A program made the translations under genes and the position numbers. Positions 8,335-60,616 of a DNA stretch of 64,000 nucleotides are shown here, in pieces; the first letter of the stretch is position 1; the number at the start of each line of letters is the position of its first letter. This DNA comes from Urechis unicinctus (taxonomy: Eukaryota; Annelida; Polychaeta; Xenopneusta; Urechidae): the NCBI GenBank assembly GCA_034190875.2, contig CM067351.1:291741-355740 (forward strand), in the 5' to 3' direction. The notes below the pieces were generated by a model. That model saw only the letters and a program-made list of their open reading frames with translations. It did no database searches and was not told the DNA's origin.

Positions 8335-8725
8335 ATGTCTCTGTGTCGCCCATGTCTCTGAGTCACACCATGTTGCTGTGTCGCCCATGTCTCTTAGTCA
8401 CCCCATGTTGCTGTGTCGCCCATGTCTCTATGTTACCCCATGTTGCTGTGTCGCCCATGTCTCTGAGTCACACCATGTTGCTGTGTCGCCCATGTCTCTG
8501 AGTTAACCCATGTTGCTGTGTCGCCCATGTCATTGAGTCATCCCATGTTGCGTGTCGCCAATGTCTTGAGTCACACCATGAGATGCTGGTCGGTGTGTCT
8601 CTGTGTCGGGGGGTGTTGCTGAGCTGCAATGTGGTGTTGAGATGCTCCCCATGTGTTGAGATGCCCCGGGTGTGAGAGCTGTGTCGCCCATGTCTCTGAG
8701 TCACCCCATGTTGGGCTGTGTGTTG
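8335..8725. repeat. Minisatellite, 35-bp unit (GTGTCGCCCATGTCTCTGAGTCACACCATGTTGCT)
   Basis: Seven or so copies, well kept up to 8560 and then rearranged, grading into the G-rich array that follows. Confidence 0.9.
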
Positions 8726-8734
8726 ATGTGCTCT

Positions 8735-10210: not shown

Positions 10211-11412
10211 TTGATATCGCTTGAGGAGAAGCATCCTATCAAGATGATATCGCTTGAGGAGAAGCATCCTATCAAGATGATATCGTTTGAGGAGAAGCAT
10301 TCCATCAAGATGATATCGCTTGAGGAGAAGCATTCCATCAAGATGATATCCTTTGAGGAGAAGCATTCCATCAAGATGATATCGCTTGAGGAGAAGCATC
10401 CTATCAAGATGATATCGCTTGAGGAGAAGCATCCTATCAAGATGATATCGTTTGAGGAGAAGCATCCTATCAAGATGATATCGCTTGAGGAGAAGCATCC
10501 TATCAAGATGATATCGCTTGAGGAGAAGCATCCTATCAAGATGATATCGCTTGAGGAGAAGCATTCCATCAAGATGATATCGCTTGAGGAGAAGCATCCT
10601 ATCAAGATGATATCGTTTGAGGAGAAGCATTCCATCAAGATGATATCGTTGAGGAGAAGCATTCCATCAAGATGATATCGCTTGAGGAGAAGCATCCATC
10701 AAGATGATATCGCTTGAGGAGAAGCATCCCATCAAGATGATATCGCTTGAGGAGAAGCATCCTATCAAGATGATATCGTTTGAGGAGAAGCATTCCATCA
10801 AGATGATATCTTGAGGAGAAGCATTCCATCAAGATGATATCGCTTGAGGAGAAGCATCCCATCAAGATGATATCGCTTGAGGAGAAGCATCCTATCAAGA
10901 TGATATCGCTTGAGGAGAAGCATCCTATCAAGATGATATCGTTTGAGGAGAAGCATCCATCAAGATGATATCGTTTGAGGAGAAGCATTCCATCAAGATG
11001 ATATCGTTTGAGGAGAAGCATTCCATCAAGATGATATCGCTTGAGGAGAAGCATTCATCATGATATCGATGATATCAAGATGATATCGCTTGAGGAGAAG
11101 CATTCCATCAAGAAGATATCGTTTGAGGAGAAGCATTCCATCAAGATGATATCGCTTGAGGAGAAGCATCCTATCAAGATGATATCGTTTGAGGAGAAGC
11201 GTTCCATCAAGATGATATCGCTTGAGGAGAAGCATTCCATCAAGATGACATCGCTTGAGGAGAAGCATCCCATCAAGATGATATCGCTTGAGGAGAAGCA
11301 TCCCATCAAGATGATATCGCTTGAGGAGAAGCATCCCATCAAGATGATATCGCTTGAGGAGAAGCATTCCATCAAGATGATATCGTTTGAGGAGAAGCAT
11401 TCCATCAAGATC
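10211..11412. repeat. 33-bp satellite array (ATGATATCGCTTGAGGAGAAGCATCCTATCAAG)
   Basis: About 36 contiguous copies with an EcoRV-type GATATC in nearly every unit and a few variable positions (CGC/CGT, TCC/CCT/CCC). Because 33 is divisible by three, frames on both strands stay open and give 11-residue repeats. A few units are shortened by one or more bases. It begins exactly where the G-rich array stops. Confidence 0.93.
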
Positions 11413-12555
11413 ATAGATACATACTTCTGTTGACATGATTATTAGGTCTCCATCTCACCAAAACCCAGCGAGTAGTAAGTGTAAGTTTTGCAAGAGAAAG
11501 GAAGACCGGCGAGTAGATCCCACAGTAAACAATATAAAACAATTACGAATGTAGAACAGCGAACGATTGCTGTGCATTCCCTGGTCATTTTCTTCAGATT
11601 TCCATGTTACAGATTTCGATCAAGCGCATTGTTCAGGTGATTATCGATTACTCGTAAAAAACAAATACACACAAACGCTTAAAAGCACAAAAGCACAAGG
11701 CGCTGAAATTCTAAAAATCTGCTCCCATTCAATACATAACACTCAAGCGTCAATTCCACATTCCACTTTCCACATCATTCTCAGACTCAACTATTCAAAT
11801 GCAAGATTCTTATTACCATTGCCATTATGTGGAGGGTTGATTTGGCCACTTTCTTTGGGGGGGTGGGAGCGATGTCATTTTATTGTGTTTGAGCTCACAT
11901 TCACCTACGTGTGTGACCTGCAACATCGACAACTACCACAGGCAGTTAGTGCGGACGATACTTTCCCCATGGCTTTATCATACAGCTTCAGCGAATGACA
12001 CCACAGCGGAAAACAATCCCAGTTTCTTGAGTTTCTCAGACAATGATTCAGGTTTCTTCAATTGCAAAATATTGATCGCGACGATAATGACAACGATCAC
12101 ACATATTAGGTCGCATATGGTACAGTAGAATCAATGCGTAATCCCTTTCAATGATTTGGACCTGAGGTTTATTATGGACATTTTATCGGGAACGACGTGA
12201 GATAATGATTGTTGCAAATTAATAGGGCGCATACAGGTGCAATCATATAACCTGAAGATTGGAAGCAACCCATATCAATGCTTAAATCAAAATAATAGGT
12301 ATTTTGAGAAAGCAGTTTGTTGAGAAAGCAGTTTATAATATTTTGGCAGTTGGCGCTATATCCGCCAAAATGATAACATTAACATTGTTGCATTGAAATC
12401 GTCATGATAGCTATCTGCCTTATAAAAGCGTCTTCTGTGATGGTTATAAACTGATATATGCTTTGTGTCACTTCTCCAGGCAGGCGGTCTATCGATTGTG
12501 ATTCATCAGTCGGCAAGAAATTGTCACATTACTGATTTGCCAACATAAAGATTCA
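11413..12555. other. No gene seen
   Basis: Non-coding. A frame at 11567-11998 has no recognisable domain and ordinary AT-rich composition, so I do not call it a gene. Confidence 0.5.
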
Positions 12556-19252: not shown

Positions 19253-20312
19253 CAGATACGAGCTGTCATCATCACATTCATTAGGGCAGGCATGTACTCA
19301 CTTATACGAGCTGTCATCATAACATCTATTAGGGCAGGCATGTACTCATTTATACGAGCTGTCATCATCACATTTATTAGGGCATCACATTTATTAGGCA
19401 TGTACTCATTTATACGAGCTGTCATCATAACATCTATTAGGGCATTACTCATTAGAGCTGTCATCATAAACATTTATTAGGGCAGGCATGTACTCATTTA
19501 TACGAGCTGTCATCATAACATTTATTAGGGCAGGCATGTACTCATTTATACGAGCTGTCATCATCACATTTATTAGGGCAGGCATGTACTCATTTATACG
19601 AGCTGTCATAATCACATTTATTAGGGCAGGCATGTACTCATTTATACGAGCTGTCATTTTATTAGGGCAGTCATACTCATTTATACGAGCTGTCATAATC
19701 ACATTTATTAGGGCAGGCATGTACTCATTTATACGAGCTGTCATCATCACATTTATTAGGGCAGGCATGTACTCATTTATACGAGCTGTCATAATCACAT
19801 TTATTAGGGCAGGCATGTACTCATTTATACGAGCTGTCATAATCACATTTATTAGGGCAGGCATGTACTCATTTATACGAGCTGTCATCGTCACATTTAT
19901 TAGGGCAGGCATGTACTCATTTATACGAGCTGTCATCATACATTTATTAGGGCAGGCATTAGGGCAGCTGTCATGGGCAGGCATGTACTCATTTATACGA
20001 GCTCATCATCATTAACATTTATTAGGGCAGGCATGTACTCATTTATACGAGCTGTCATACGAGCTGTACATTTATACGAGCTGTCATCATCACATTTTAG
20101 GGCAGGCATGTACTCATTTATACGAGCTGTCATCATCACATTTATTAGGGCATGTACTCATTTATACGAGCTGTCATCATCACATTTATTAGGGCAGGCA
20201 TGTACTCATTTATACGAGCTGTCATCATCACATTTATTAGGGCAGGCATGTACTCATTTATACGAGCTGTCATCATCACATTTATTAGGGCAGTCATGTA
20301 CTCATTCCTGCA
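19253..20312. repeat. 48-bp minisatellite (CATTTATTAGGGCAGGCATGTACTCATTTATACGAGCTGTCATCATCA)
   Basis: About 22 copies over 1.06 kb. The unit length is divisible by three, so both strands show artefactual 16-residue repeat frames. Several units are internally deleted (19390, 19440, 19650, 19940-19980, 20060), all leaving the CATTTAT / GAGCTGTCAT blocks. Confidence 0.93.
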
Positions 20313-33660: not shown

Positions 33661-34330
33661 TATGCTGTGTTACAGACATTTTCTACAATTGTGCTAATAC
33701 ATTCTCCTGCAGCATCTCACAGAGGACAAATCCCAGAGAAGAGCAACCGTTATGATCTAAGATTCGTTGCATATGCTTTGCCGCCTGAGACAAGAAAGGC
33801 AAAGAAATGTATGTTTCTGGCCGTAATCACTATATTTGACATGTGCCTTCCAAATTTGAATAGTTTTTATATTTTGATTAAATGTTTTATCGACATTGAC
33901 AGAAAATATAATTAAATTCTTACAATACATACAATACATTACTATTTTTAATATTTTACTTATGTGTGTCTATATGATATTTATGGAATTAACCGCTACA
34001 TCTTCCACAGGTGCATTGCTCCTGTATGGGTTTTGTAAGAATATTCATTAGTTGCGACTGCAACGTATTCTGTTTGGATGATTTTCGGTAGGCTCCCAGC
34101 AATGTCGTGGCGTATTATCACATGGTAGCAGCGGTAAACAAGAGTAAAAACAATTATTCAACTACCAAGCATCACCAGAAATGGTAGACAACCGATCTAC
34201 TCACCTGTAAGTGCCATAAAGCCGATAATATGTAAAGCTCGCAACGAACCGGAACAGTCGTCTGCAGACTGTAAAATGCACCGTCATACCCTGAGGTTGT
34301 CACCATAGAATTGTATATTTAGTATTAACT
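33661..34330. other. No gene seen; leader of the following retroelement
   Basis: AT-rich. ACATGGTAGCAGCGGTAAAC at 34119-34138 resembles a retrotransposon primer-binding region (TGG start). I could not find a matching long terminal repeat downstream, so the 5' boundary is not set. Confidence 0.35.
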
Positions 34331-34894
34331 ATGGCAACCATAGGCAGTATAGAGCAATGCGACGAATCTCGCGGAGATTTCGTGACCTACATGGTCTGCG
34401 TTAAATTATTCTTCACTGCCAACGGGGTAGATGACGGGAAGAAGGTACCAACTCTATTGACTTTGATTGGGCCAAAGACATACCAGCTATTGACTGACCT
34501 AGTATCACCGGACAATCCCAAAGACAAGGCGCTAGCTCAAATAGAAAACACGCTAAAGAGCCACCTAAACCCCGCACCACTTGTCATTGCAGAACGTTTC
34601 AGATTTCACCAGAGAAGTCAAGGCCAAAGAAAGCCAATAAAGGACTTTGTGGCGAGTCTAAAGTCGTTGGCTTCTACATGTCAGTTTGGCGAATTTCTGA
34701 ATGATGCGCTGCGGGATAAATTTGTATGTAGCCTAAAGGATTCGTCCACTCAAAAGAAATTACTAACTGAGGCAAGTTTGACGTTTGTAAGAGCTATCGA
34801 GATCGCAACGTCAAATGAGACAGCTCCTAAGGATGCCGGGCAACTGAAACTAAGGACCATGCGGTCCATGGGATCAAATTCCAAGGGACAATAA
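34331..34894 (+). CDS. Ty3/Gypsy-type gag (capsid) of a broken retrotransposon
   Basis: 187 codons open from ATG. The helical capsid-like region matches the gag pattern of K02A2.6-type Gypsy elements: residues 26-50 (KLFFTANGVDDGKKVPTLLT, LIGPKTYQLL), ERFRFHQRSQG near 88, FVASLKSLASTCQFG near 107 and LRDKFVCSLKD near 127. Gag packages element RNA in the cytoplasm. The frame ends before the zinc knuckle, which follows in another frame at about 34905-35000 (CKYCGRDH... and CTKCKKQNHSASKC, a CCHC finger), so at least one frameshift has occurred. It is upstream of the pol remnant on the same strand. Confidence 0.75.
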   Translation: MATIGSIEQCDESRGDFVTYMVCVKLFFTANGVDDGKKVPTLLTLIGPKTYQLLTDLVSPDNPKDKALAQIENTLKSHLNPAPLVIAERFRFHQRSQGQRKPIKDFVASLKSLASTCQFGEFLNDALRDKFVCSLKDSSTQKKLLTEASLTFVRAIEIATSNETAPKDAGQLKLRTMRSMGSNSKGQ

Positions 34895-34899
34895 CAAAT

Positions 34900-36432
34900 T
34901 GTAAATACTGCGGACGTGACCACAAAAGGGGTCAATGCCCAGCATATGGCGAAACCTGCACAAAATGCAAAAAGCAGAACCACTCGGCATCAAAATGTCA
35001 AGATGGAAAATCCAGATATCGTAAATCATATAGGTCTCCGTCGCGTGGCAGCAGGCCACCACATCACAGGGAAAAACTCGGAACGCAGAAACAGACAACA
35101 GACATACAAGAAAGTCCATGGCGTGGTTATGGCTGATGATCCACCATTGGAAACCCTGTCTGCGTGTACAGATCGACAGCGGCGCTGAGGCTGATATATT
35201 GCATCTCGTGCTGAAGGATGGAGCACAACCGGTAGTGCAAGCACCATGTAAATGTCCCATACATTTACAGGGAGAGATTCAAGCATCCCTAGAAGAGATG
35301 GAACTAAAAGAAATCATCGAAAAAGTACCCGCCGGACAACCTACTGAATCAAGAAAGCCAAGTGGCATTTGCCTCGATCCACGTGATATTAATGCCAATC
35401 TGAAGCGCACGTATCACAGAAGTCCTCATGACAAAGGCTAGAGCCTCACGACTTGAGTATAACGCAGAGAAGTGTGTTATTAAGGTCCCAGAGGTATCCT
35501 TTTTCGGTACGACATATACAGCACAGGGGGCCAAGCCCGATCCAAAGCGAGTGCAAGAGATCACCAGCTTGCCCGAGCCCCAAAACAAAAAAGGAACTGC
35601 AGTCCGTCCTTGGAATGGTACAGCATTTGGTACTATTTATACCACACCTGAGCGACCTCACAGCTCCACTTCTTATCAAGAAAGATGTTGAGTTTGCTTG
35701 GACGCCTTCATATGGTCAAGCCTTCACAGCTATTAATCAGGCCATAGCCAATGCGACAACCTTAAACTATTTCAACCTCAAGCTGGATACAAAAGTACAA
35801 GTGGATGCGAGCATGCACGGTCTAGGGGCAGCCCTTCGTCAAACAGACCCTGCCGATTCTACAAAAGAGGGAGTCATAGCGTTTGCATCAAGCGTTTGAG
35901 TCTCACTGACACAGAATCGAGGTATGCAAACATTGCGCGCGAGTGCTTAGCAGTGATGTACGGCGTAGAAAAGTTCCAGACATACGTATATGGAGCAAAG
36001 GTGGTCGTTGAGTCCGACCATAAACCTTTAGAAGCCATACACCTGAAGAATCTGTCACAGACACCACCCCGACTACAACGCATGTTGTTACGCCTTCAAC
36101 CATATGATATAACTATCAAGTATATAAAGGGGTCGGATATGGCACTCGCAGACTTCCTGTCTCGTTACAGCCCTAACAGAGAAGAGCCTGAAATCACCAT
36201 GGATGCGACAATACATACCGTACACTGGCAGAATGATAAATTGCAAGAATTGAGAGCCGAAACAGCAAATGACAATATACTATCCAACTTAGCTGAAGTC
36301 ATTAAAAATGGCTGGCCAAACAAATGCTCCGAGCTCACGATAAATTTGAAGCCATACTGGACAATGAAAGACTATCTGAGCATTGATGACGGAATTATAC
36401 TGAAGGGGCAAAAATTAGTCAAACATAATTGA
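34900..36432 (+). pseudogene. Ty3/Gypsy pol remnant with reverse transcriptase core deleted
   Basis: In order: zinc knuckle (34905-35000); aspartic protease start with the catalytic D-S-G-A at about 35175-35186; then directly the RT N-terminal region (ICLDPRDINANLKR at about 35370-35405); then the RT thumb/connection (FFGTTYTAQGAKPDPKR at 35500-35550). Next come RNase H (FTAINQAIANATTLNYF, VQVDASMHGLGAAL at 35800-35830; YANIARECLAVMYGVEKF at 35930-35985; HKPLEAIH at 36020) and a short linker ending at 36432. Missing are the rest of the protease, the RT palm with its YxDD motif, and all of integrase. There are at least three frame changes. It cannot be autonomous. Confidence 0.8.
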
Positions 36433-40697: not shown

Positions 40698-41976
40698 GTG
40701 TTAGTTATCGCATGGTCACGTGGGTGATATGGGGAAAGAACACGAGGACGCGGAGCGTCCGAGTGTCTTTCACCATATCATCCGCGTGACCATGCGATAA
40801 CATACTTATCGCGATGGCACCTACACGCGATAATCAAGCACGACGCTGTCTCCTAATGACGATAATTAGCGTGAACCTATGTTATGTAAGGTATCTGCGT
40901 GAGACCTGTAAATATGAAAGGTAGTCCCTTAATCCAACATTCGGCCTCAGCTGCTTGCCATGATGGTTTCAACCATAGGAGATCTCGGAGATTTATCTTT
41001 TTTGGAAGCCAGTGATATTGAGACGGATTTTAGTGTTCCTGATGGTGCGTTCGGTGCTCCCATGGATCTATTTTCAGAAAATAAATGGGAAATTAGCGAA
41101 GCTTCCTATGCTGGTCGGATCAGCACCCCGCTGACATCAGACAAATTTAAAGAATCATTGAAGAACAGGGTGCCAAGAAACACTAGAAGATGTGAAAGTT
41201 GGGCTGTGAGTGTATTCAAAGACTGCCGGGATTGGAGGCAGACCCAGCCGGAAGCTGTTAGGGACCCTAATGGATCTATTCCCGAATTTGGGCAAGCTTC
41301 GTTCCAGCAACTAGACTACTGGCTTGCAAGATTCATATGCGAAACTAAACGTCGAGATGGATCGCCCTATCCACCCGGTTCTCTTCGAGGTCTTTCAGCT
41401 GGTATTCAGCGACATCTCATAGAAGAGTATGGTTATAATGTCGCTTTATTTAAGAAGGAGGACATGACGTTCAAGACATTTCAGAATTCATTGGAAAAAC
41501 GAACAAAGGAACTAATAGGCGAAGGAATAGGCGTGCGTTCAAAGACGAAAGATCCCGTGACGCAGAAGGACGAGGAAGCTCGCCGTTGCTGAAGTTAGCA
41601 ACACTGTAGCGCAGAAGACTCGGCTCGGCAGGTGTTACAATTTCGCGCCTCAGCATGATTCCGGGGAGATGGGGTAATACCGTGACTTCCCGATGAGCGC
41701 TACGCAACCACATTAGCGGCTGGCAAGCAAATGACTCTTGAGAAAACCTTCGTTATTGCACTTGTAAAGAGTGCGTGATATTAAGAACCTCCGTAGTATT
41801 GCCATGCTAGAGCCGCGGTGCTCTGTGAGGGACCATCTCAGGTGAAGTTGTTTCTCGGTGATATTGCGACACGGTTGCAGTTATCGCATGGCAAACTGTG
41901 CGTTTGAGGTGATATGGGAAAAAGACCGAGCTTTTTCTCGAGCTCTGATTGGCTGAGAGGAGGGTGCCATGCGATA
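40698..41976 (+). mobile_element. Crypton-like non-autonomous element, left copy
   Basis: A 1279-bp unit shared almost base for base, in inverse orientation, with 47615-48895. Edges are set by where the two copies stop matching: GTGTTAG at the start and GATA at the end. The first 96 bp (40705-40800) form a long imperfect palindrome beginning TTATCGCATGGTCACG and ending CGTGACCATGCGATAA. The last 97 bp (41881-41977) begin TTATCGCATGGC and end GCCATGCGATAA and share GGTGATATGGG-AAAG with the first. A third pair of the motif (TTATCGCG / CGCGATAA) lies at 40806-40834. It carries one plus-strand coding frame. It lacks TIRs of DDE type other than the 10-bp TATCGCATGG / CCATGCGATA. Confidence 0.8.
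40960..41592 (+). CDS. N-terminal half of a Crypton/KIAA1958-type tyrosine recombinase-like protein
   Basis: 210 codons. Residues 1-55 are acidic and low in structure. Residues 56-160 match the N-terminal all-helical core-binding region of KIAA1958 / ZMYM / QRICH1-type proteins, which derive from Crypton transposons: WAVSVFKDCRDWR, LDYWLARFICETKRRDG, YPPGSLRGLSAGIQRHL, then FKTFQNSLEKRTKEL and GIGVRSKTKDP. A full recombinase continues into a catalytic domain with R..H..R..Y; here the frame turns abruptly to EEARRC and stops, and no catalytic residue follows within the element. So it should bind DNA at best, not cut it. The family assignment is from memory of motif order. The start is the first ATG of the frame (a second ATG follows directly). 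Confidence 0.7.
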   Translation: MMVSTIGDLGDLSFLEASDIETDFSVPDGAFGAPMDLFSENKWEISEASYAGRISTPLTSDKFKESLKNRVPRNTRRCESWAVSVFKDCRDWRQTQPEAVRDPNGSIPEFGQASFQQLDYWLARFICETKRRDGSPYPPGSLRGLSAGIQRHLIEEYGYNVALFKKEDMTFKTFQNSLEKRTKELIGEGIGVRSKTKDPVTQKDEEARRC

Positions 41977-41995
41977 AATACATTTCACCATAACC

Positions 41996-42286
41996 AACAA
42001 GAGGCCCATGGGAGCCATGTGGGAACTTGGCGAACTGCATCCAAATAATTGCAACAATTTCAGAATGGGGCCACAATTGACCAATATCGGCCACAAATTA
42101 CCTAAGTTATCATGCCTCTTATGTTGAAAATCATTATGATTGCAAAGTGATTCATGGGAAATGAAAAGTCATAACGTGTAAATCATCATTACGTTATGAT
42201 ATATACAATAAGATGAATTATTGGACCAATTTTGAAATTTGCCCGGGGGCCTCGAGGTTTCCCCATGTATCTACGGGGCTCTTGTT
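41996..42286 (+). mobile_element. MITE with AACAAGAGGCCC / GGGCCTCTTGTT ends, copy 1
   Basis: Terminal inverted repeats run roughly 35 bp: AACAAGAGGCCCATGGG..CATGTGGGAA at the left and TTCCCCATGTATCTACGGGGCTCTTGTT at the right. The interior is AT-rich and non-coding. I recall this end sequence as common in mollusc genomes. Confidence 0.7.
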
Positions 42287-42706
42287 TGTGTAGCACGAAA
42301 GGGAAATGAAAAATCATAAGGTACGTTATCATCGTTATGATGTCTAATGGGAACCATCGATAACCAATGGTGATAAAGAAGTATTGACTGGCATGGCTTC
42401 GTTTGCGATGTGTTGCATCGATATGCAAATTTTTTTAGAGGACATTCATTTTTACAGTGAATTGGACTGGTCCGTATTGCTGCTTGCCGGCTTTACGCAA
42501 AGCGAGCTGGCAGCAGCGGTGACCTTTGTGAAACTATCAACCTTAAACATTCATTCAGAAGCCAAACAACATTAAGCAATAAAAAATCCGTATCAACCTA
42601 TAATTAACAAAATTACTATGGATATATCAATCATGTTGAGTGTTTAGCTGTTGTTGGCACCTGTAATACTTATTATTTATATATGACAATGCCTGCTAGT
42701 GTGCTA

Positions 42707-42778
42707 GGCCGCGTGGCGTAGCGTCAATGATTTAGACTTCCATGCCAGAGGCCGGTGTTCAAATCCCGTACACGGACA
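42707..42778 (+). mobile_element. tRNA-derived SINE-like head, copy 1
   Basis: Contains an A-box-like TGGCGTAGCG at 42714 and a B-box-like GGTGTTCAAATCC at 42754 spaced as in a tRNA, with TTAGACTTCCATGCCAGAGG between. The T stem does not pair well and acceptor ends do not match, so it is not a working tRNA gene. It recurs at 44916-44986 with several substitutions. Confidence 0.6.
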
Positions 42779-44205
42779 TAATTTTTTTTCCGAATTTTCG
42801 TGCCACAACAATTATTTCATCTAATTTCAATAGAACACGATTTGTGCTGTCGATGACAACAGCTGAGCAGATTTTTATCATTATAGAACTGATATTTACG
42901 ATTTTATTAGCAATCGAAAATTGGACGAAAATTGACTGAGTGAAATTTGTTTTTTCAACTCAACGCGCTTTGAAAACGACGAATATTTTGATAGCGTATG
43001 TCAATTATCAAAGTTTAGTAACTGTGTCAGCTTTTAGATACTGGTAATTTTGTTACGATCGGACGATAATTAGTGAATTTATTGCGAAATTAAAACGTTG
43101 AGAGATTTTGGTTACCAGAAATTTTCGACCTGCTACAATTTTTTTAACAATGCATTATTTACAACTAAGTATATTTAGAAAAAGTTTACAATTACATTAC
43201 ACTTTCAGAATATCTAAACTGTTTTTAAATGAAATTCTAAAGCATGGACGTATTGAGCATTGAACTTGTGTCATTTTTTATAAACTTTGATGCTTTCGTG
43301 ACCGGAAGTGACGTCATCGACATTCATGATATTTTAGGACACGTCTTGGTATGTCGCTGAGAACATGTGAACCAAATTTTATTACCATCGGACATGTATT
43401 GACGGTTTTATAGGCGCTCAAAATATTCTGGAAACTTTTGTTGCCATTTGGACCGATACCACTTTTTTCCGACCTTAGACGCTTGGGAAAACCATTGGTT
43501 GGATCGCCGTATATGTATTTAGAAAAAGTTTGCAATTGGAATGAGCTACACGATGGTGTAAAGTTTTTAACAATCCGACCATTATTAACGGAGTTATTCG
43601 AGTTACTAGATTTTCACTTATTCGATGACCTTGACCTTAGTTTCAGGTCAAGGTCACAACAAAACCTCTCGGTTCTGGGCATCATTACCCCCTAACGATG
43701 GGTGAAGAACAAATTGGAAAATTTCCAAAATTGCGACCTGTTTCGCGGATCACAACAAATGATATCTGATAGGCGCTCAACATATTCATGAAACTTTTGT
43801 TGCCATTTGGACCGATACCACGTTTTTTCGACCTTAGGCGCTCGGGAAAACCATTGGTTGGATCGCCGTATAAGTATTTAGAAAAAGTTTGCAATTTGAA
43901 TGAGCTACACGATGGTGTAAAGTTTGTAACGATCCGACCATTATTAACGGAGTTATTCGAGGTACTAGTTTTTCACTTATTCGATGACCCTGACCTTAGT
44001 TTTGGGTCAAGGTCAAAACAAAACATCTGGGTTCTGCGCATCATTCACGCCTAGCGATGGGTGAAAAAAAAATTGGAAAATTTCAAAAATTGCGACCTGT
44101 ATCGTGTAACAAAAAAAGTGTTACAAACATTATACAAACATACATACATACAAACTTACAAACCGGACCGATCGCCATAACTTGGCGTTCCGAAAACGCC
44201 AAGTT

Positions 44206-44495
44206 AACAAGAGGCCCATGGGTACATGGGGGAACTTGGCGAACTGCATCCAAACAATTGCAACAATTTCTAAATCGGGCCAAAATTGGCCAAAATCGGC
44301 CAAATATTACCTAAATTATCATGCCTCTTATGTTGAAAATCATTATGATTGCAAAGTGATTCATGGGAAATGAAAAATCATAACGTGCAAATCATCATTA
44401 CGTTATAATATATACAATAAGATGAATTAGTGGGCCGATTTTGAAATTTGCCCATGGGCCTCAAGGTTTCCCCATGTATCTACGGGCCTCTTGTT
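44206..44495 (+). mobile_element. MITE with AACAAGAGGCCC ends, copy 2
   Basis: AACAAGAGGCCCATGGGTACATGGGGGAACTTGG at the left pairs well with CAAGGTTTCCCCATGTATCTACGGGCCTCTTGTT at the right; better preserved inverted repeats than copy 1. Confidence 0.72.
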
Positions 44496-44915
44496 TGTGT
44501 AGCACGAGAGGGAAATGAAAAATCATAAGGTACTTTATCATCGTTATGATGTCTAATGGGAACCATCGATAAGCAAGGGTGATAAAGAAGTATTGACTGG
44601 CATGGTTTCGTTTGCTGTGTGTTGCATCGATATGCTAATTATTTTAGAGGACATACATTTTTACAGTGAATTGGACGGGTCCGTATGGCTGCTTGCCGGC
44701 TTTACGCAAAGCGAGCTGGCAGCAGCGGCGACCTTTGTGAAACTATCAACCTTAAACATTCATTCAGAAGCCAATCAACATTAAGCAATAAAAAATCCGT
44801 ATCAACCAATAATTAACAAAATTACTATGGATTTCTCAATCATGTTGAGTGTTTAGCTGGTGTTGGCACCTGTAATACTTTTTATCTATATATGACAATT
44901 ATTAGTTGTGTGCCA

Positions 44916-44986
44916 GGCCGCGTGGCGTAGCGGCATTGTTTTAGACTTCCATGCCAGAGGCCGGTGTTCAAATACATTGCACGGAC
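44916..44986 (+). mobile_element. tRNA-derived SINE-like head, copy 2
   Basis: GGCCGCGTGGCGTAGCGGCA with A box TGGCGTAGCGGC, then GGTGTTCAAATACATT where the B box has decayed further than in copy 1. Part of the tandem unit. Confidence 0.55.
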
Positions 44987-46719
44987 AAAATTTTTTTCCC
45001 GAATTTTCGTGCCACAACAATTATTTCATTTAAATTCAATAGAACACGATTCGTGCTGTCGATGACAACAGCCGAGCAGATTTTTATCATTAAAGAACTG
45101 ATATTTACGATTTTATTAGCAACCGAAAATTTGACGAAAATTGACTGAGTGAAATTTGTTTTTTCAACTCAACGCGCTTTGAAAACGACGAATATTTTGA
45201 TAGCATATGTCAACAATCAAAGTTTGGCAATTGTACCAGCATTCAGAAAATGTTAATTTTGTTACGATCGGACGATAATTAGTGAATTTATTGCGAAATA
45301 AATAAGTTGAGAGATTTTGGTTACCAGAAATTTTCGACCTGCTACAATTTTTTTAACAATGCATTATTTACAACTAAGTATATTTAGAAAAAGTTTACAA
45401 TTACATTACACTTTCAGAATATCTAAACTGTTTAAAAATGGAACTGTAAAGTACGGACGTATTGAGCATTGAACTTGTGTCATTTTTTGAAAACTTTGAT
45501 GCTATTGTAACCGGAAGTGACGTCATCGACATTCATGATTTTTTAGTACACGTCTTGGTATGTTGCGGAGAACAGGTGAACCAAATTTCATTACCATCGG
45601 ACATGTATTGACGATTTTATAGGCGCTCAAAATATTCATGAAACTTATATTGCCATTTGGACCGATAACACGTTTTTTCGACCTTAGGCGCTTGGGTAAA
45701 CCATTGGTTGGATCGCCGTATATGTCATTAGAAAAAGTTTGCAATTTGAATGAGCTACACGATGGTGTAAATTTTGTAACGATCCAGCCATTATTAACGG
45801 AGTTATTCGAGGTACTAATTTTTCACTTATTCAATGACCTTGACCTTACTTTCGGTCAAGGTCAAAACAAAACCTCTCGGTTCAATTAGCGCCTAGCGAT
45901 GGGCGAAAAAAAATTGGAAAATTTCCAAAATTGCGACCTGTATCGGGATTAATATCTGATAGGCGCTCAACATATTCATTAAAACTTTTGTTGCGCCGAT
46001 ACCACTTTTTTTCGACCTTAGGCGCTCGGGAAAACCATTGGTTGGATCGCCGTATAGTATTTAGAAAAAGTTTACAATTTGAATGAGCTACACGATGGTG
46101 TAAAGTTTTGTAACGATCCGACCATTATTAACGGAGTTATCCGAGGTACTAGTTTTTCACTTATTCAATGACCTTGACCTTACTTTTCGGTCAAGGTCAA
46201 AACAAAACTTCTCGGTTCTGCGCCTTATTAGCGCCTAGCGATGGGCGAAGAAAAAATTGGAAAATTTCCAAAATTGCGACCTGTATCGCGGATCACAACA
46301 AATGATATCTGATAGGCGCTCAACATATTCATGAAACTTTTGTTGCCATTTGGACCGATACCACTTTTTTTCGACCTTAGGCGCTCGGGAAAACCATTGG
46401 TTGGATCGCCGTATTAGTATTTAGAAAAAGTTTGCAATTTGAATGAGCTACACGATGGTGTAAAGTTTGTAACGATCCGACCATTATTAACGGAGTTATT
46501 CGAGATACTAGTTTTTCACTTATTCAATGACCCTGACCTTAGTTTTAGGTCAAGGTCAAAACAAAACATCTCGGTTCTGCGCATCATTGACGCCTAGCGA
46601 TGGGTGAAGAAAAAATTGGAAAGTTTCAAAAACTGCGACCTGTATCGCGAAACAAAAAAAAGGTTAACAAACATACATACATACATACATACAAACATAC
46701 AAACCGGGGTGATCGCCAT

Positions 46720-46747
46720 AACTTGGCGAATGCGAATTCGCCAAGTT
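46720..46747. repeat. Terminal hairpin (AACTTGGCGAAT stem)
   Basis: 12-bp perfect stem with a GCGA loop, directly after a (CATA)n tail and ACCGGGGTGATCGCCAT. The equivalent hairpin of unit 1 (44179-44205) has an 11-bp stem AACTTGGCGTT with loop CCGAA. Confidence 0.8.
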
Positions 46748-47614
46748 AACAATGTCAAGGTTAACAATATGTACAGCCACATGTGATCACAGAGCCATGG
46801 ATCATTCCTACAACAGATGGCTGAGGACAAAATACACATTGGATTGACATGAGACAAACTGCTACAACAGAGTCAGCTCTGTCGTCTTCAGGCAGCCAGA
46901 CGTGACATGCGCTGTGATGGCGTGACCTGTGACCTTATAGAGCGCCGGCAGGTAGAGACAACGTGCAGACAGCGCCGGGTAAACAACACCTCAACCCAGC
47001 CCACTGGACGCTAATGGGCGACCATCCCCGTCCCTGGTTGGCCAGCAGCTCTGTGACGTCAGCCGTGTGGACGTTGCTGTGAGTCGCACTGTGTCAGTAC
47101 AGCGTGCGTGTTAGGGGAGGTGTAGCAGGTGATCTTCTGTACGTGAGTTGCTACCTGCTGTCTGACAGCAGACACTGGTGTGGTGTAGATAGAGCCGCGG
47201 TCATCTATAAACACGAGCTGGCCGTTGATGTGGATGATGCCCCATGGAGCACCACAGAACTCAGATGGAAGCTCAATACAGGCTGCTGGGGCTCTCGTCT
47301 TCACCCCGTACAGCTGTAGTAGACAAGTGAGGCTGTCATCACGCGGTCCCAGTACGGCCATGCCACCACCGTCACACACACAGCAGCAGGCATTGTAACA
47401 TGATACTCCCCGCAGACGACCTGCATCAGTCACACGGTGTGTAGTGCTGTCCACCACCTCCACCTCACCTACCAGTGTATGAGTAGCAAATAGTGGATTA
47501 AAACGAGGATTATTTCCCGCCATGACCAGCAGACTGCTGTCACTGACACACATACTCACGAGCACATACTCACGAGCACAGGTCTGCCAGCTCTCCTGTA
47601 TCACATTATACTTC

Positions 47615-48895
47615 TATCGCATGGCACCCTCCTCTCAGCCAATCAGAGCTCGAGAAAAAGCTCGGTCTTTTTCCCATATCACCTCAAACGCACAGTTTGC
47701 CATGCGATAACTGCAACCGTGTCGCAATATCACCGAGAAACAACTTCACCTGAGATGGTCCCTCACAGAGCACCGCGGCTCTAGCATGGCAATACTACGG
47801 AGGTTCTTAATATCACGCACTCTTTACAAGTGCAATAACGAAGGTTTTCTCAAGAGTCATTTGCTTGCCAGCCGCTAATGTGGTTGCGTAGCGCTCATCG
47901 GGAAGTCACGGTATTACCCCATCTCCCCGGAATCATGCTGAGGCGCGAAATTGTAACACCTGCCGAGCCGAGTCTTCTGCGCTACAGTGTTGCTAACTTC
48001 AGCAACGGCGAGCTTCCTCGTCCTTCTGCGTCACGGGATCTTTCGTCTTTGAACGCACGCCTATTCCTTCGCCTATTAGTTCCTTTGTTCGTTTTTCCAA
48101 TGAATTCTGAAATGTCTTGAACGTCATGTCCTCCTTCTTAAATAAAAGCGACATTATAACCATACTCTTCTATGAGATGTCGCTGAATACCAGCTGAAAG
48201 ACCTCGAAGAGAACCGGGTGGATAGGGCGATCCATCTCGACGTTTAGTTTCGCATATGAATCTTGCAAGCCAGTAGTCTAGTTGCTGGAACGAAGCTTGC
48301 CCAAATTCGGGAATAGATCCATTAGGGTCCCTAACAGCTTCCGGCTGGGTCTGCCTCCAATCCCGGCAGTCTTTGAATACACTCACAGCCCAACTTTCAC
48401 ATCTTCTAGTGTTTCTTGGCACCCTGTTCTTCAATGATTCTTTAAATTTGTCTGATGTCAGCGGGGTGCTGATCCGACCAGCATAGGAAGCTTCGCTAAT
48501 TTCCCATTTATTTTCTGAAAATAGATCCATGGGAGCACCGAACGCACCATCAGGAACACTAAAATCCGTCTCAATATCACTGGCTTCCAAAAAAGATAAA
48601 TCTCCGAGATCTCCTATGGTTGAAACCCATCATGGCAAGCAGCTGAGGCCGAATGTTGGATTAAGGGACTACCTTTCATATTTACAGGTCTCACGCAGAT
48701 ACCTTACATAACATAGGTTCACGCTAATTATCGTCATTAGGAGACAGCGTCGTGCTTGATTATCGCGTGTAGGTGCCATCGCGATAAGTATGTTATCGCA
48801 TGGTCACGCGGATGATATGGTGAAAGACACTCGGACGCTCCGCGTCCTCGTGTTCTTTCCCCATATCACCCACGTGACCATGCGATAACTAACAC
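47615..48895 (-). mobile_element. Crypton-like non-autonomous element, right copy, inside the kelch gene
   Basis: Reverse complement of 40698-41976. I find only two length differences: an extra G in a GGG run (ATGATGGG, near 48633) and an extra T in a TTTT run (near 48147), which account exactly for 1281 versus 1279 bp. Ends are TATCGCATGG at 47615 and GATAACTAACAC ending 48895. It has the same orientation as the host gene. Confidence 0.82.
48138..48645 (-). pseudogene. Recombinase N-terminal-domain ORF, frameshifted copy
   Basis: The same protein as at 40960-41592, but an extra G at the start (after ATGATG) puts the first residues out of frame and an extra T after codon NVA ends the frame early at 48138. 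Between them (48590-48150) the 146 residues are the same as in the left copy. Either this copy is newly dead or both indels are homopolymer errors of the assembly. Confidence 0.7.
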
Positions 48896-49104
48896 ATAAT
48901 GCTTCTCTTGTCTTGACCGGCCCCGGCGATGTATATACTCTCCCCCAGACCACAGCAGGCGACGCTGTCATGAAGCCGACCAGTAGTGGTGCTAGGGGAG
49001 TCCACCTCGTGCGGAGGCGACGTCCAGGACGCAGGGTAGATAGACAGGCTGGATGAACCCCACCACACAGTCGCCGCAAACGACTGACGTGGTACAGCTA
49101 CTGA

Positions 49105-49290
49105 TGATGAGGGAGCTGGTCGTAATGAGGGAGCTGGTCGTGATGAGGGAGCTGCTGTAGATAAGAGAGCTGGTCGTGATGAGGGAGCTGGTCGTGATGA
49201 GGCAGCTGGTCGTGATGAGGGAGCTGGTGTAGATGAGGGAGCTGGTATTGATGAGGGAGCTGATGTAGATGAGGGAGCTGCTGTTGACGT
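49105..49290. repeat. 18-bp coding minisatellite (GAGGGAGCTGGTCGTGAT)
   Basis: About ten units, in frame with the kelch gene on the minus strand, where they encode the six-residue Ala-Pro-Ser-Ser-Arg-Pro type repeat of the linker. Confidence 0.88.
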
Positions 49291-50150
49291 GGACACAGAG
49301 GAAGCTGCAGTGATGAGGGAGGTGGGCGGCATGGTAGATGCGGGTTTAACTGATGCTGCTGCAGCTGCTGTTAAGATGGCGCGGGAAGCAGAATTGGCGC
49401 TTACTACAGGATCACGATTAGCTATAAATTTCAGATTCATTTTGATCATACTATTAAGATCTAAACAGGCAATTATTGAGGGAAGATGACGCAGTCTGGT
49501 TTGGGTGTCAGCGCTTAACCAATTGATAGCAGCGAATAATCTGTCATCAGGGCATTCTACAGCAAGCGAAGCATGGCTTACGGATAGCTTAACAGATAAG
49601 AGATCTAAAGATTGGAAACTATGATCGTCTACAAGCTCCTTAAAGTTATGCAAGGCTAAAGATTCAAATTTGTGGATAAGCATTTGGTCGTTAATGTGGT
49701 AGCCACCCCCTCAGACAGTTACTGACACTTGGTACACAGTTAGTCAACACTACTCGTTGGCAGTCGTCCGCCAGCTGTTTGATGCCCAGCTTCTTGGCTG
49801 TGTCTCCCAGCGCCGAGGCAAATTCTTGGGGCACTTCAACCCGCCCTAAATAGAGAAATTCTAACAGGAAATGCATGATTTCGTCATTGATGGTCAGACC
49901 CAGGCTGGACAAGGAGGGGTTGTCAGTTAGGATTGGTAGAAGGAAGCTGCATAATGCCACAATGACCACGCGATGCACCTTATATTGCTGGCTCCGGGTG
50001 ATCAACGTGAAGTCAGTGAACTGCTGCTTCTTATAAAGCTCCCATTGAACTTGTCGAGTGTCAATCGCGCTGGGTATCTCAGAGGTAAATGTGGCGCCAC
50101 CTTTGGACACGAATGGATCACTGGAAGCCATCCTGATTGTTGTCAATGTC

Positions 50151-50240
50151 CTGAAATCAAGAAATAATAGTTGATGTCAAATTGCAAGGACTGGTTGAAA
50201 TACATTGATCACTATAACTAAAATAAGAAAAGTTAATTAT
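50151..50240 (-). promoter_or_regulatory. Splice acceptor upstream of the kelch coding exon
   Basis: On the minus strand ATTATTTCTTGATTTCAG precedes GACATTGACAACAATCAGG and the ATG, indicating a 5' UTR intron. The donor and first exon were not located. Confidence 0.45.
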
Positions 50241-54559: not shown

Positions 54560-54960
54560 TACAATATCAAATCAACAGAAATACTGAGAAGGGAAGAGGT
54601 TATCAAATCTGTCTTCACAAACAAGCCATCATGTTCCTAGAGATTACACGGTGCACTATACGGAACTGAACCATGACTATGCCTATGACATTATCACAGG
54701 AAGAACTGAACCATGACTATGCCTTATAACAGCAGCTCATTCTGTACCAATTTACCATACAGCCTTAATATCACAGAACCCTTATTCTTTATTATTAGAG
54801 AATGTCACAGGAACAAAGTAGAACTAGAGACACTGATGAGGAGTGTTATAACTCTGTCAAAGTGAGCTGCCATACGACCCTGTAGTTGTGCTGTAAGAAC
54901 AGTATAATTAGAACAGTGAAATTAATAATTGGAACAGGCTAATATTGTGCAGCTAAAATG
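54560..54960. repeat. Dispersed repeat fragment plus spacer
   Basis: 54575-54640 matches 530-600 (AACAGAAATACTGAGAAGGG, AAATCTGTCTTCA, CATCATGTT.CCTAGAG). The rest is non-coding, with a small duplication of AACTGAACCATGACTATGCC at 54664 and 54702. Confidence 0.6.
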
Positions 54961-55555
54961 CGCTGATATTAGGCAATCAGTCTGCACTGATATTAGGCCA
55001 TCAGCCTTTGGTGATATTAGGCCATCAGCCTTTGGTGATATTAGGCCATCAGCCTGAGGTGATATTAGGCCATCAGCCTGAGGTGATATTAGGCCATCAG
55101 CCTTTGCTGATATTAGGCAATCAGTCTGCACTGATATTAGGCCATCAGCCTTTGGTGATATTAGGCCATCAGCCTTTGGTGATATTAGGCCATCAGCCTG
55201 AGGTGATATTAGGCCATCAGCCTTTGGTGATATTAGGTCATCAGCCAGTGGTGATATTAGGCTATCAGCCTGAGGTGATATTAGACCATCAGCCTGAGGT
55301 GATATAAGACCATCAGCCTGAGATAGCATTAGGCCATCAGCCTGCGGTGATATTAGGCCATCAGCCTGCAGTGATATTAGGTCATCAGTCTGAGGTGATA
55401 TTAGGCCCTCAGCCTGAGGTGATATTAGGCCATCAGCCTGAGGTGATATTAGGTCATCAGCCTGAGGTGATATTAGACCATCAGCCTGAGGTAATATTAG
55501 GCCATCAGCCTGAGGTGATATTAGGTCATCAGCCTTTGGTGATATTGGGCCATCT
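54960..55555. repeat. 24-bp minisatellite (TGATATTAGGCCATCAGCCTTTGG)
   Basis: About 25 copies with the last four bases alternating between TTTGG, TGAGG and others, in a higher-order pattern. The unit length is divisible by three, so frames on both strands stay open. These are not genes. Confidence 0.93.
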
Positions 55556-55830
55556 GGACACTGGAATGAAGGTATAATATACCTTCATTCCAGTGTCCGT
55601 CTATTTACCTGTTTCGTCAGGCCGTCCATTATACCTTCATTCCAGTGTCCGTCTCGTTACCTGTATCGTCAGGCCGTCCATTATACCTTCATTCCAGTGT
55701 CCGTCTATTTACCTGTTTCGTCAGGCCGTCCATTATACCTTCATTCCAGAGTCCGTCTCGTTACCTGTATCGTCAGGCCGTCCATTATACCTTCATTCCA
55801 GTGTCCGTCTATTTAACAGCTCATCCTTGT
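55556..55830. repeat. 52-bp minisatellite beginning in a perfect palindrome
   Basis: Five copies of a unit starting ATTATACCTTCATTCCAGTGTCC and ending GTCAGGCCGTCC. The first unit is preceded by its own inverted start, giving 21-bp arms, 55556-55576 and 55578-55598, around a single base. Alternate units read CTATTTACCTGTTTC and CTCGTTACCTGTATC. Confidence 0.93.
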
Positions 55831-57905: not shown

Positions 57906-58039
57906 TCTTTGATAAATACCACAAAGGCCACCCTCATGTAATCACTAACGGTCGGCGATTTATTATTCGCCAGCTTCCCTCACATCTTGTGCCGTGGTTT
58001 TACCTCAATCCAAATGAATTGACAACCCCACTCGCGACT

Positions 58040-59666
58040 TAAACTCAACCACACTGCATGGGAAAAAGAGCTTCATGACGATCATGATTGTGTGTTCATT
58101 CTAAATGGCATCAACAACGGATTTAAAATTGTAGACAAAGAGGAAACACCAACCCCGGCCGAGGTGACTAATTACTCTTCCGCCCTCACACAAGCTACCG
58201 AGGTTGAACGCCAAATCCGGCATGAGATCGACGAACAAAGATATGTGATCACCAACTATAAGCCAGTTCTGATAAGTGCCATGGGTGCCATCCCTAAGGA
58301 TAGCGGAGGCATCCGCCTCATTCATGACTGTAGTAAACCACGTGGTACGGCAGTAAATGATTACGTAAGTGACACTTTTGTTACTAAATACCAGACAGTC
58401 TCTCAAGCAGTTGGTTATATTCGACCCTCCTATTTTCTAGCCAAAGTGGACCTTAAGTCTGCTTATAGAAGCGTGCCTCTTCACCCATCTCAGTTTAAGT
58501 TTACTGGTCTCAAGTGGCGATTCAAGGGTGACGAGCATGACACTTATTTTTATGATACAGCTCTTCCGTTTGGTGCCAGGAAAGCCCCTGGCATATTTCA
58601 CCGATTATCTCAAGCTATTCGCCGAATGATGCATCGGCGTGGACATACAGTAGTAGCATATTTAGATGACTTTCTCATTGTAGCGGATTCATATGATGCT
58701 TGCACGCTTGCTCTCAACACTCTATTGCGCCTTTTGCGTTCACTAGGATTTGCGATTGCTTGGGAAAAAACAGTGGCCCCTACGCAGCGCCTAACTTTCT
58801 TGGGCATACAAATTGATTCCGAAAATATGACGCTCAGCTTACCGCCGGACAAGGTTTCAAAACTGCTTTGTATGCTAGCTAAATTCTCCAAGAGATCTCG
58901 TGCTTCCTGTCGGCAGCTTCAGCAACTTGCCGGGAAACTCTCTTGGGCCGCACACGTCGTCAATGGAGGTAGAGTTTACCTGCAACGCGTGCTGGACATC
59001 CTTCGCCCTCTTCAGAAGCCACATCATAAAGTCCGTCTGTCATCAGAATTTCGTAAGGATATCGCTTGGTGGCAACAGTGCTTGCACCACTTCAACAGTA
59101 AACATATACTGTCACCCCACGCACACCCAGTACATGTTTACACCGATTCATCATCTGAAGGGGCTGGCCTCGTTACTCCCACAGATTGGGCCTATGTTGA
59201 TTGGGTTATTGATATGCCTCAATTCAAAGACTCCCATATCAACATTAAAGAAACTATGGCAGCCATATTAGTTATCTATCGCGGGGCGGCTACTTTCGCT
59301 CACAAGAGAGTTATTCTGCACACGGATAACTCAACTACGCGCGCCTATATCAACAAGGGCGCGTGTCGTGACCAGGTTTTGATGCACCATTTACGTAATG
59401 TGTTTTGGCTATCTGTTATACATAATTTTGAGTTACAGTGTGTGCATATTGCAGGGAAGGCAAACATTCTGGCAGATTGTTTGTCAAGATTAAGGACACG
59501 TGGTCATCTACTGTATTGGCACTCCCTGCTTTCCCCTGGACTTTCCTTTGATCCTGACACCTTTGCTAAGAATGCCTTGATGCATATGTCACCAGCAGCG
59601 TGCGGTTATTTGTTGTCACAGGTTGCCCCCCTGGCCAGCTACTCCAACAATTACAAAGTGCCGTAG
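58040..59666 (+). CDS. Reverse transcriptase-RNase H of a DIRS-superfamily (Ngaro-like) retrotransposon
   Basis: The frame is open from 58042 (LNHTAWEKELHDDH); the first ATG is 58092, giving 524 residues. RT motifs, numbered from that ATG: AMGAIPKDSGGIRLIHD (63-79), KVDLKSAYRSVPLH with the first catalytic Asp at 120, LPFGARKAPGIFH (158-170), YLDD at 190-193, LTFLGIQID (234-242). RNase H: Asp 352 in VYTDSS, Glu 387 in NIKE, Asp 412 in HTDNS, Asp 462 in ANILADCLSR. All catalytic residues are present. It copies element RNA to DNA. No methyltransferase domain follows, unlike DIRS1. The frame overlaps the recombinase gene by 67 bp in another frame. Confidence 0.88.
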
Positions 59667-60616
59667 ATTACTACCGGTCCCGGGCCTTCGCAGAGAGCAC
59701 CAAGCAGTCTTACAGAACCCACTTGCGCAGTTATCTCACTTTCTGTGACGAATTTAAGCTACCTCCATATCCCATTAGCCAAGAGAGAGCCTGTCTGTAT
59801 GCAGCTTACTTAGCGCCCAAACTGCAACCTGCATCAATTACGAAATACTTGAATATTGTACGAATCCTTAACTTGGAATTAGGTCTGCCTAGCCCTTTGG
59901 CTGACAATTATTTTCTTAACACCGTGCTGAAGGGTATCAAACGAGATAAGCCTGTTGGTGTGAACCGCAAATTGGCGATAACCCCTCAAATTCTACTCAG
60001 TATTCGGTCCCTGTTACACCTAAACCAACCGAAAGACATGGTATTTTGGACAGCGTGCTTAATCGCTTTCTTTTGCTTACTGAGGAAGGCAAATTTAGTT
60101 CCTTCCTCGAGCACCTCTTTCCGCCCTACCTGTCATTTGGTACGAGGTGACATGGCAAAAATTAATGGCGGATTAGCTTTACGGGTGAAATGGTCCAAAA
60201 CTATTCAATTTGCAGAGCGTCAATTGATAGTTCCCCTTCCCCTTCTACGGGGTCATCCGCTTTGCCCAGTATCGGCATTGGCCTCTGTACTATGTCTCGA
60301 CCCCGCAGCGTCTCCTGGCACCCCACTCTTATCTTTCCCAATCCCAGGCGGTGCCAAACTTCTAACACGCTCTACCTTTGATACCACCTTACGCGCCTTG
60401 TTGCTGCGACTGGGACTCCCACCTGAGAGGTTTTCTGGCCACAGTTTCAGACGTGGAGGGGCCACATGGGCTTTCAAGTCGGGTTTGCCGGGTGAAATCA
60501 TTCAGATCCTTGGCGATTGGAAATCGGACGCATATAAAATTTACCTTGATTTAAATGTTGATACGAAATTAACCTTCCTCCGACTATTTTCCAAAAATCT
60601 TCCTACTCGTCCCTAG
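59600..60616 (+). CDS. Tyrosine recombinase of the Ngaro-like element
   Basis: 338 residues. The N-terminal core-binding domain spans residues 20-120 (YYRSRAFAESTKQSYRTHL, LYAAYLAPKLQPASITKYL). Catalytic residues in order: Arg 162 (CLLRKANL), Lys 197 or 200 (RVKWSKT), His 281 and Arg 284 (GHSFRRGGATW), Trp 307 in the position often held by His (LGDWKSDAYKIYL), and nucleophile Tyr 315. The frame is intact. The enzyme inserts the circular element DNA by site-specific recombination, without target duplication. Position downstream of RT-RNase H, with no methyltransferase, is the Ngaro arrangement. The true start may be the ATG at 59600 or translation may follow frameshifting from the RT frame. 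Confidence 0.87.
   Translation: MRLFVVTGCPPGQLLQQLQSAVDYYRSRAFAESTKQSYRTHLRSYLTFCDEFKLPPYPISQERACLYAAYLAPKLQPASITKYLNIVRILNLELGLPSPLADNYFLNTVLKGIKRDKPVGVNRKLAITPQILLSIRSLLHLNQPKDMVFWTACLIAFFCLLRKANLVPSSSTSFRPTCHLVRGDMAKINGGLALRVKWSKTIQFAERQLIVPLPLLRGHPLCPVSALASVLCLDPAASPGTPLLSFPIPGGAKLLTRSTFDTTLRALLLRLGLPPERFSGHSFRRGGATWAFKSGLPGEIIQILGDWKSDAYKIYLDLNVDTKLTFLRLFSKNLPTRP

Follow-up and report, generated by a model that had tools for sequence, protein, structure and literature searches.

Animal Cryptons, among them CryptonA and CryptonI, carry a DUF3504-related recombinase, and their short non-autonomous derivatives outnumber the copies with the catalytic part. In the survey of Kojima and Jurka of 2011, they are described as having no terminal repeats, whether direct or inverted (PMC3212892). 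The fungal and oomycete Cryptons, CryptonF and CryptonS, are recombinase transposons as well, for which a circular intermediate has been proposed, and they carry terminal direct repeats of 4 to 6 bp (PMC3212892). The bacterial SEs SE-6283 (Tn6283) and SE-6945 have tyrosine recombinases and inverted terminal motifs with no direct repeats, and the segregation of their spacers, measured on circles, shows that one specific strand is exchanged (PMC5991714, PMC9345347). Integron cassettes, through attC, undergo an asymmetric one-strand exchange that is resolved by replication and involves folded ends (PMC2727003, PMC4792948), while Tn916 and CTnDOT integrate without spacer homology or target duplication and give heteroduplex coupling sequences on excision (PMC5991714).

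Here, we compare with these systems an element that interrupts a kelch gene in the window (the whole stretch of 64,000 nucleotides that was analyzed). Its family shares with the animal Cryptons a DUF3504-related recombinase, which is found in a damaged relative, L076, and not in the insert alone, and its short derivatives likewise outnumber copies with the catalytic part. Unlike the animal Cryptons of 2011, it does have terminal repeats, in the form of 11-bp inverted arms, and it combines these with a 7-bp spacer that is confined to one end and with a dyad motif in its targets; unlike CryptonF and CryptonS, it has no direct repeats of 4 to 6 bp at its two ends. Its assignment to the Cryptons is made because of the recombinase, and since neither the absence of terminal repeats nor the fungal direct repeats apply to it, we call it a new variant. 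A literature search, conducted outside Repbase reports and most subscription papers, returned no account of animal Cryptons that describes strand bias, a motif in the target, or arms at the termini. The footprint of the family agrees with the strand exchange of the SEs, although it is read from genomic insertions and not from circles; the SEs differ in being bacterial and in having two recombinases and a 6-bp spacer, and the two are likened by features, not by sequence relationship. Unlike in attC, folding would depend on inner arms that many family members have lost or carry in mutated form, and unlike the coupling sequences of Tn916 and CTnDOT, the left spacer of the element is nearly constant (GTGTTAG).

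The window contains two copies of the element in opposite orientations (Table 1), which align over 1281 to 1284 bases. Copy A lies in a kelch gene with BTB and BACK domains. On the minus strand, the sequence across the insertion reads AGC ATT AT, then GTGTTAG...CCATGCGATA, and then G AAG TAT AAT GTG. The initial annotation had proposed that removing the element restores the reading frame, and indeed, excising these 1281 bp left a single open kelch frame with the seam AGC ATT AT^G AAG TAT AAT and the residues S-I-M-K-Y-N-V continuous across it. The joined protein gave a Kelch_6 match of 23.9 bits, just below the Pfam cut-off of 25.3 bits, and this match was absent from either half alone. With a shortened kelch protein, the exact join ranked at the top of eight variants, with 24.2 bits compared to 17.8 to 22.6 bits for seven joins in which residues had been added or removed. 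The genome holds at least about 30 matches to the interrupted gene that cover the greater part of the joined sequence with 68 to 82% identity at the protein level, and many of these are uninterrupted frames. Six uninterrupted paralogues were fetched for the comparison with an intact kelch gene, which had been set beforehand. Five harbor the exact ATG-AAG join (ATTAT^GAAG), while the sixth, L089, has ATTATAAAG at the seam.

Table 1. Features of the two element copies and of the interrupted kelch gene, in positions of the window
Feature	Position	Strand	Remark
Copy A, probable non-autonomous Crypton-type element within the kelch gene	47615..48895	-	1281 bp, without terminal A
Spacer GTGTTAG, left end of the element	48889..48895	-	7 bp
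Arm 1, TTATCGCATGG, left terminal arm	48878..48888	-	
Arm 2, CCATGCGATAA, internal inverted counterpart of arm 1	48793..48803	-	
Arm 3, TTATCGCATGG, internal inverted counterpart of arm 4	47700..47710	-	
Arm 4, CCATGCGATA(A), right terminal arm	47615..47624	-	
ORF remnant of copy A	48138..48629	-	Two 1-bp indels relative to copy B
Copy B, same element in opposite orientation	40698..41977	+	99.8% identical to copy A
Intact 210-aa ORF of copy B	40960..41592	+	ATG to stop; Pfam QRICH1, E 3.2e-9
CATTAT, left half of the target site in the kelch gene	48896..48901	-	Genome-wide pattern yGwTAw
Kelch 3' part of the interrupted frame	47059..47614	-	
Kelch BACK domain plus the beginning of kelch repeat 1	48896..49710	-	
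Kelch BTB domain	49691..50176	-	Separate frameshift near 49700

Several other features were recorded around these copies. Relative to L089, the reading frame of the kelch gene shifts where the BTB part gives way to the BACK part (49680-49710, minus strand), near a run of five G; this frameshift is independent of the insertion and reflects either a pseudogene or an assembly error. Clusters of kelch-type genes occur on C11, C2, C16, C7, C14, C4, and C12, and the interrupted gene has at least about 30 closer relatives. Units of roughly 2.1 kb, repeated imperfectly with 91% identity, span 41996-46752, beginning about 19 bp to the right of copy B. The window also contains fragments of an LTR-type retroelement with an RT_RNaseH match (34295-36432, plus strand) and long minisatellite-like arrays with open frames (8701-11415, 19256-20306, and 54922-55584).

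The genome searched was an assembly of 1.19 Gb in 926 contigs. It contains at least 41 long copies with 96 to 100% identity (40 scored of 3244 candidates). The copy set comprised the two copies of the window, 39 fetched in 37 stretches, and five obtained via a protein search, that is, 46 copies of at least 900 bp, 32 of which have both ends. Exact family ends are more numerous: we found 561 left tips, using a pattern that includes GTGTTAG (reversed control, 0), and 725 right tips (control, 1), the latter not all being independent insertions, as some lie within tandem arrays. The internal dyad GCGATAA-N4..10-TTATCGCATGG occurs 570 times, and many of the family members examined were shorter or rearranged. 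Among 30 loci chosen by protein, most of them already included in the 32 both-ended copies, 20 have the left arm, preceded by GTGTTAG in 18 cases, by GCGTTAG in one, and by another module in one. A search of viral contigs gave no match.

Some copies are arranged in unusual ways. L016 and L011 adjoin or lie inside the ends of other copies head to head, L079 lies next to or inside the end of another copy head to tail, and in L030 the left module is doubled, with its arms fused. In L107-L111, the left modules have lost the sequence between the hairpin tip and GCG/AGCG microhomologies downstream of it, a pattern that resembles replication slippage at the hairpin. Seven right ends with a spacing of about 1.8 kb on one strand (G000:C1:31160768-31171676) are likely a tandem array of a family member, and two head-to-tail joints 922 bp apart (G000:C13:63473696-63474641) look like a concatemer of a short one. 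Matches to the element ORF were also seen inside open frames of 2842 aa (G000:C1:51996631) and 2734 aa (C5:4782406).

We then asked how cleanly the element is inserted. Not one of the 32 both-ended copies had 3 bp or more of duplicated target at its junction, compared to an average of 0.75 for shuffled flank pairs. Counting the terminal A as the element's own, at least 1 bp was shared at the junction in three copies, including 2 bp in one of them (shuffled means, 4.94 and 2.57). The joined flanks of 23 copies were searched for unfilled places, with about 40 scored matches in each of three batches. Among the matches listed, junction-spanning unfilled places, which are paralogous places and not alleles, were found for 10 of the 23 copies (L009, L010, L013, L014, L015, L020, L022, L025, L029, and L039); the other 13 were uninformative because repeats filled their match lists. 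From those listed, 19 empty places were fetched. No base was gained or lost at the seam for nine of the 10 copies, while for L015 one GAG unit differs just to the right of the junction in both fetched empty places. Similarly, L032 is nested within another copy, and the uninterrupted element, which represents its empty site, indicated by eye neither gain nor loss. The other copies, which had been named at the outset as a test for consistent target duplications, thus agree with the kelch junction.

The filled and empty pairs define the element as GTGTTAG...GATAA, the A after GATA being its own. The boundary first drawn, ending in GATA, is therefore correct for the kelch junction but not for the right end in general, which is one base longer (GATAA) in 31 of the 32 copies. 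As the kelch copy is devoid of the terminal A, its net insertion is 1281 bp instead of the general 1282 bp. The family does not show the target-site duplication of DDE cut-and-paste transposition. This lack of duplication does not by itself prove the action of a tyrosine recombinase, and the earlier premise that tyrosine recombinases leave no duplication was too strong, since the fungal Cryptons have their direct repeats of 4 to 6 bp (PMC3212892).

The terminal arms are highly conserved, the left arm being exact in 31 of the 32 both-ended copies and the right arm, CCATGCGATA, in all of them. When the element ends are joined, they form CCATGCGATAA-GTGTTAG-TTATCGCATGG, an 11-7-11 inverted-arm site that has the layout of a tyrosine-recombinase site. 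Such sites are usually made of arms of 11 to 13 bp and a spacer of 6 to 8 bp (PMC3212892). The targets mimic this end-to-end joint: their motif, yGwTAw-N6-wTAnC, is a dyad with a spacer of 6 bp compared to 7 bp in the joint. In 29 copies (the 32 minus L011, L016, and L032, each of them located inside or beside another copy), CGATAA at positions -6 to -1 left of the junction was matched at a mean of 3.59 of 6 and TTATCG right of the junction (R8-R13) at 2.79 of 6, against a background of 1.59 and a largest value of 2.38 among 20000 random-offset trials.

The half-site positions had first been noticed in these same copies, and separately chosen ends were therefore used as a second test. In 20 right ends selected by an exact 16-mer, of which L118-L120 have near-identical flanks, the right half-site peaked at the same place (2.75 at R8; next best, 2.1). 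In 20 left ends selected by an exact 18-mer, 15 have T at -3 and 18 have A at -2. This set gave weaker support for the left half-site; many of its flanks consist of element sequence or repeat each other, and the 11 distinct flanks that were kept, none of them derived from the left end of the element, match CGATAA at 2.36 of 6. We also considered base pairing between the target and the element spacer (R2 = G). G was present at R2 in 16 of the 29 copies but A in 11 of the 20 ends of the second set, and because the R2 preference differs between the two sets, spacer pairing is unsupported.

Each element end is a module of about 96 nt with inverted arms, and at the left end the 115 nt of 48786-48900 on the minus strand have a folding energy of -47.3 kcal/mol (z -13.3). 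Folded single-stranded ends, as in attC, were nevertheless rejected as a candidate: among modules taken from other places in the genome, 20 of left ends and 20 of right ends, the inner arms (2 and 3) were often mutated without compensation or absent, and conserved arm pairing within one strand, as in integron cassettes, was not found. This verdict was reached by inspection; it weakens the hairpin version, which we do not claim.

The two ends differ in the spacer that they carry. GTGTTAG is present at the left end in 30 of the 32 both-ended copies; in the other two, L020 and L073, it differs by one base. The right end, on the other hand, borders target sequence, with GTGTTAG there in none of the 29 full copies and in none of the 20 separately chosen right ends. 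Genome-wide, GTGCCATGCGATAA is followed by GTGTTAG at four places, versus 725 occurrences of GGGTGCCATGCGATAA. Three of the four are head-to-tail joints consisting of a full right end, GTGTTAG, and a left arm, to which L079 can be added with a diverged right end; such joints bear only indirectly on a circular intermediate. The sole unexplained case is C9:33040300. A joint pattern using just six left-arm bases gave eight exact places, which we did not count, as the one at C7:23598068 (in L021) is merely a target ending in CGATAA.

That the element's spacer stays at the left end and the target's at the right suggests a strand-specific exchange, as in the bacterial SEs. If the top strand were exchanged at the spacer's left edge, insertion as well as excision would give exactly the observed product, and the spacer would stay constant. 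Canonical two-strand exchange, in contrast, makes heteroduplex spacers, so that both ways of segregation are expected. The same Crypton recombinase could still act by canonical exchange if the mismatch between the 7-bp and 6-bp spacers were nearly always repaired toward one strand, and strand-biased mismatch repair could in this way be the source of the asymmetry between left and right spacers. The seamless junctions and the motif data fit this explanation equally well, and canonical recombinases that do not need spacer homology are described as making heteroduplex coupling sequences that are resolved later (PMC5991714). However, the bias would have to be near absolute, with one unexplained exception against 725 right ends, and the unequal spacer lengths would suit a canonical double exchange poorly. 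We regard repair bias as an unlikely source of the asymmetry.

The ORF of copy B corresponds to only the core-binding part of a recombinase, and no catalytic domain was found by Pfam in it or in the stretch after it, QRICH1 being the sole match. Its predicted structure was unusable (mean pLDDT, 36.7), and PDB sequence searches gave no relevant match. L076, a damaged 2.3-kb relative, is 92 to 94% identical to the element in both halves and harbors in its middle about 1.05 kb of additional sequence with DUF3504 (9.3e-17) and Phage_integrase (2.3e-6) matches, although it is itself frameshifted and damaged at its left tip. A second locus, L078, begins with 26 bp that match the left tip exactly and continues with a portion of the recombinase and positions 885-1263 of the element, the right tip being absent. 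More than a dozen other partial matches to the catalytic region were found, most of them with stops and none spanning the whole query, and no intact full-length (autonomous) family copy was among the catalytic-region matches in the genome. The initial annotation had equated the family of the encoded protein with that of the mover. The match in family holds through L076 but not through the element's own ORF, and since this ORF is without a catalytic domain, movement would have to occur in trans.

We also considered whether the truncated protein is functional and rejected this, as the ratio of nonsynonymous to synonymous changes in the 46 copies (N/S, 3.42; expected, 3.3) and the number of stops (4; expected, 4.3) were neutral. 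Distinct changes per site were fewer at coding (0.143) than at noncoding (0.210) positions in the same copies, so that a weak constraint on the truncated ORF is possible.

In the ORF list of L076 the recombinase is the sole long ORF, and Pfam was run on that ORF only. A reverse transcriptase ORF accompanying the recombinase, as in DIRS-type elements, is absent from both the element and L076. A separate DIRS-like retrotransposon lies elsewhere in the window (58023-60616, plus strand); it has a reverse transcriptase ORF (RVT_1, E 2e-19) and an overlapping tyrosine recombinase ORF, with Phage_integrase and SAM-like matches just under the cut-offs.

A DDE-type or other duplication-free transposase could, in principle, have inserted the element by linear cut-and-paste, with the recombinase ORF as a passenger. 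DDE groups without target duplication exist, and the element has short inverted ends. However, the only long ORF of L076 encodes the recombinase, and the arm-mimicking dyad target and the 11-7-11 layout are features of recombinases, so that we consider this explanation very improbable. Helitrons are characterized by the absence of duplication, a hairpin near an end, and variable downstream sequence, and a Helitron-like rolling-circle insertion would account for the seamless insertion, the very stable left-end hairpin, and the unrelated DNA after some left ends (L080 and L081), but it is scarcely credible given two defined and abundant ends (561 and 725 exact tips), a dyad-symmetric target, an encoded enzyme that is a tyrosine recombinase, and no Rep or helicase seen among the L076 ORFs. 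One-ended transposition, which L080-L082 had suggested, was dropped, as exact right tips are at least as frequent as left ones.

Overall, the original argument that the junction points to a tyrosine recombinase as the mover is strengthened by the 11-7-11 site, the target mimicry, and the DUF3504 and Phage_integrase matches of L076. We consider it probable that the insert is a non-autonomous member of the Crypton family, moved by a recombinase supplied in trans via a circle and by one-strand exchange into a dyad target. Internal deletion would have produced a derivative that keeps both ends and the core-binding domain and has lost the catalytic domain. A full-length recombinase of the family, acting in trans, would then join the ends of the element into a circle (arm-GTGTTAG-arm), and this circle would recombine with a degenerate dyad target, yGwTAw-N6-wTAnC, with nothing duplicated or lost. 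We infer that the product would receive the top strand alone, after a cut at the spacer's left edge, and that replication would resolve this single-strand exchange. This would account for the observed position of the element's 7-bp spacer on the left and of the 6 bp belonging to the target on the right.

More tentatively, and with somewhat less confidence than doubt, we propose that this animal Crypton family as a whole uses strand-specific single-strand exchange resolved by replication, as a eukaryotic counterpart of the SEs and the integron cassettes. Unequal spacers (7 bp in the circle and 6 bp in the target) together with a fixed left spacer may represent the genomic signature of such an exchange, a proposal that we hold equally tentatively. 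Copy-out, if true, would also account for a family of hundreds of copies.

For an animal Crypton, base-level data are now available on the ends, the probable crossover site, the motif in the target, and pairs of filled and empty sites, and the reaction is thereby directly testable. A recombinase that inserts without spacer homology and leaves its target otherwise intact would also interest genome engineers. The genes ZMYM2-4, QRICH1, and KCTD1, which carry DUF3504, descend from Crypton recombinases (PMC3212892), and what such an enzyme bound is therefore relevant to those genes. If the proposed strand mechanism is true, it would be readable from insertion footprints in any Crypton-bearing animal genome.
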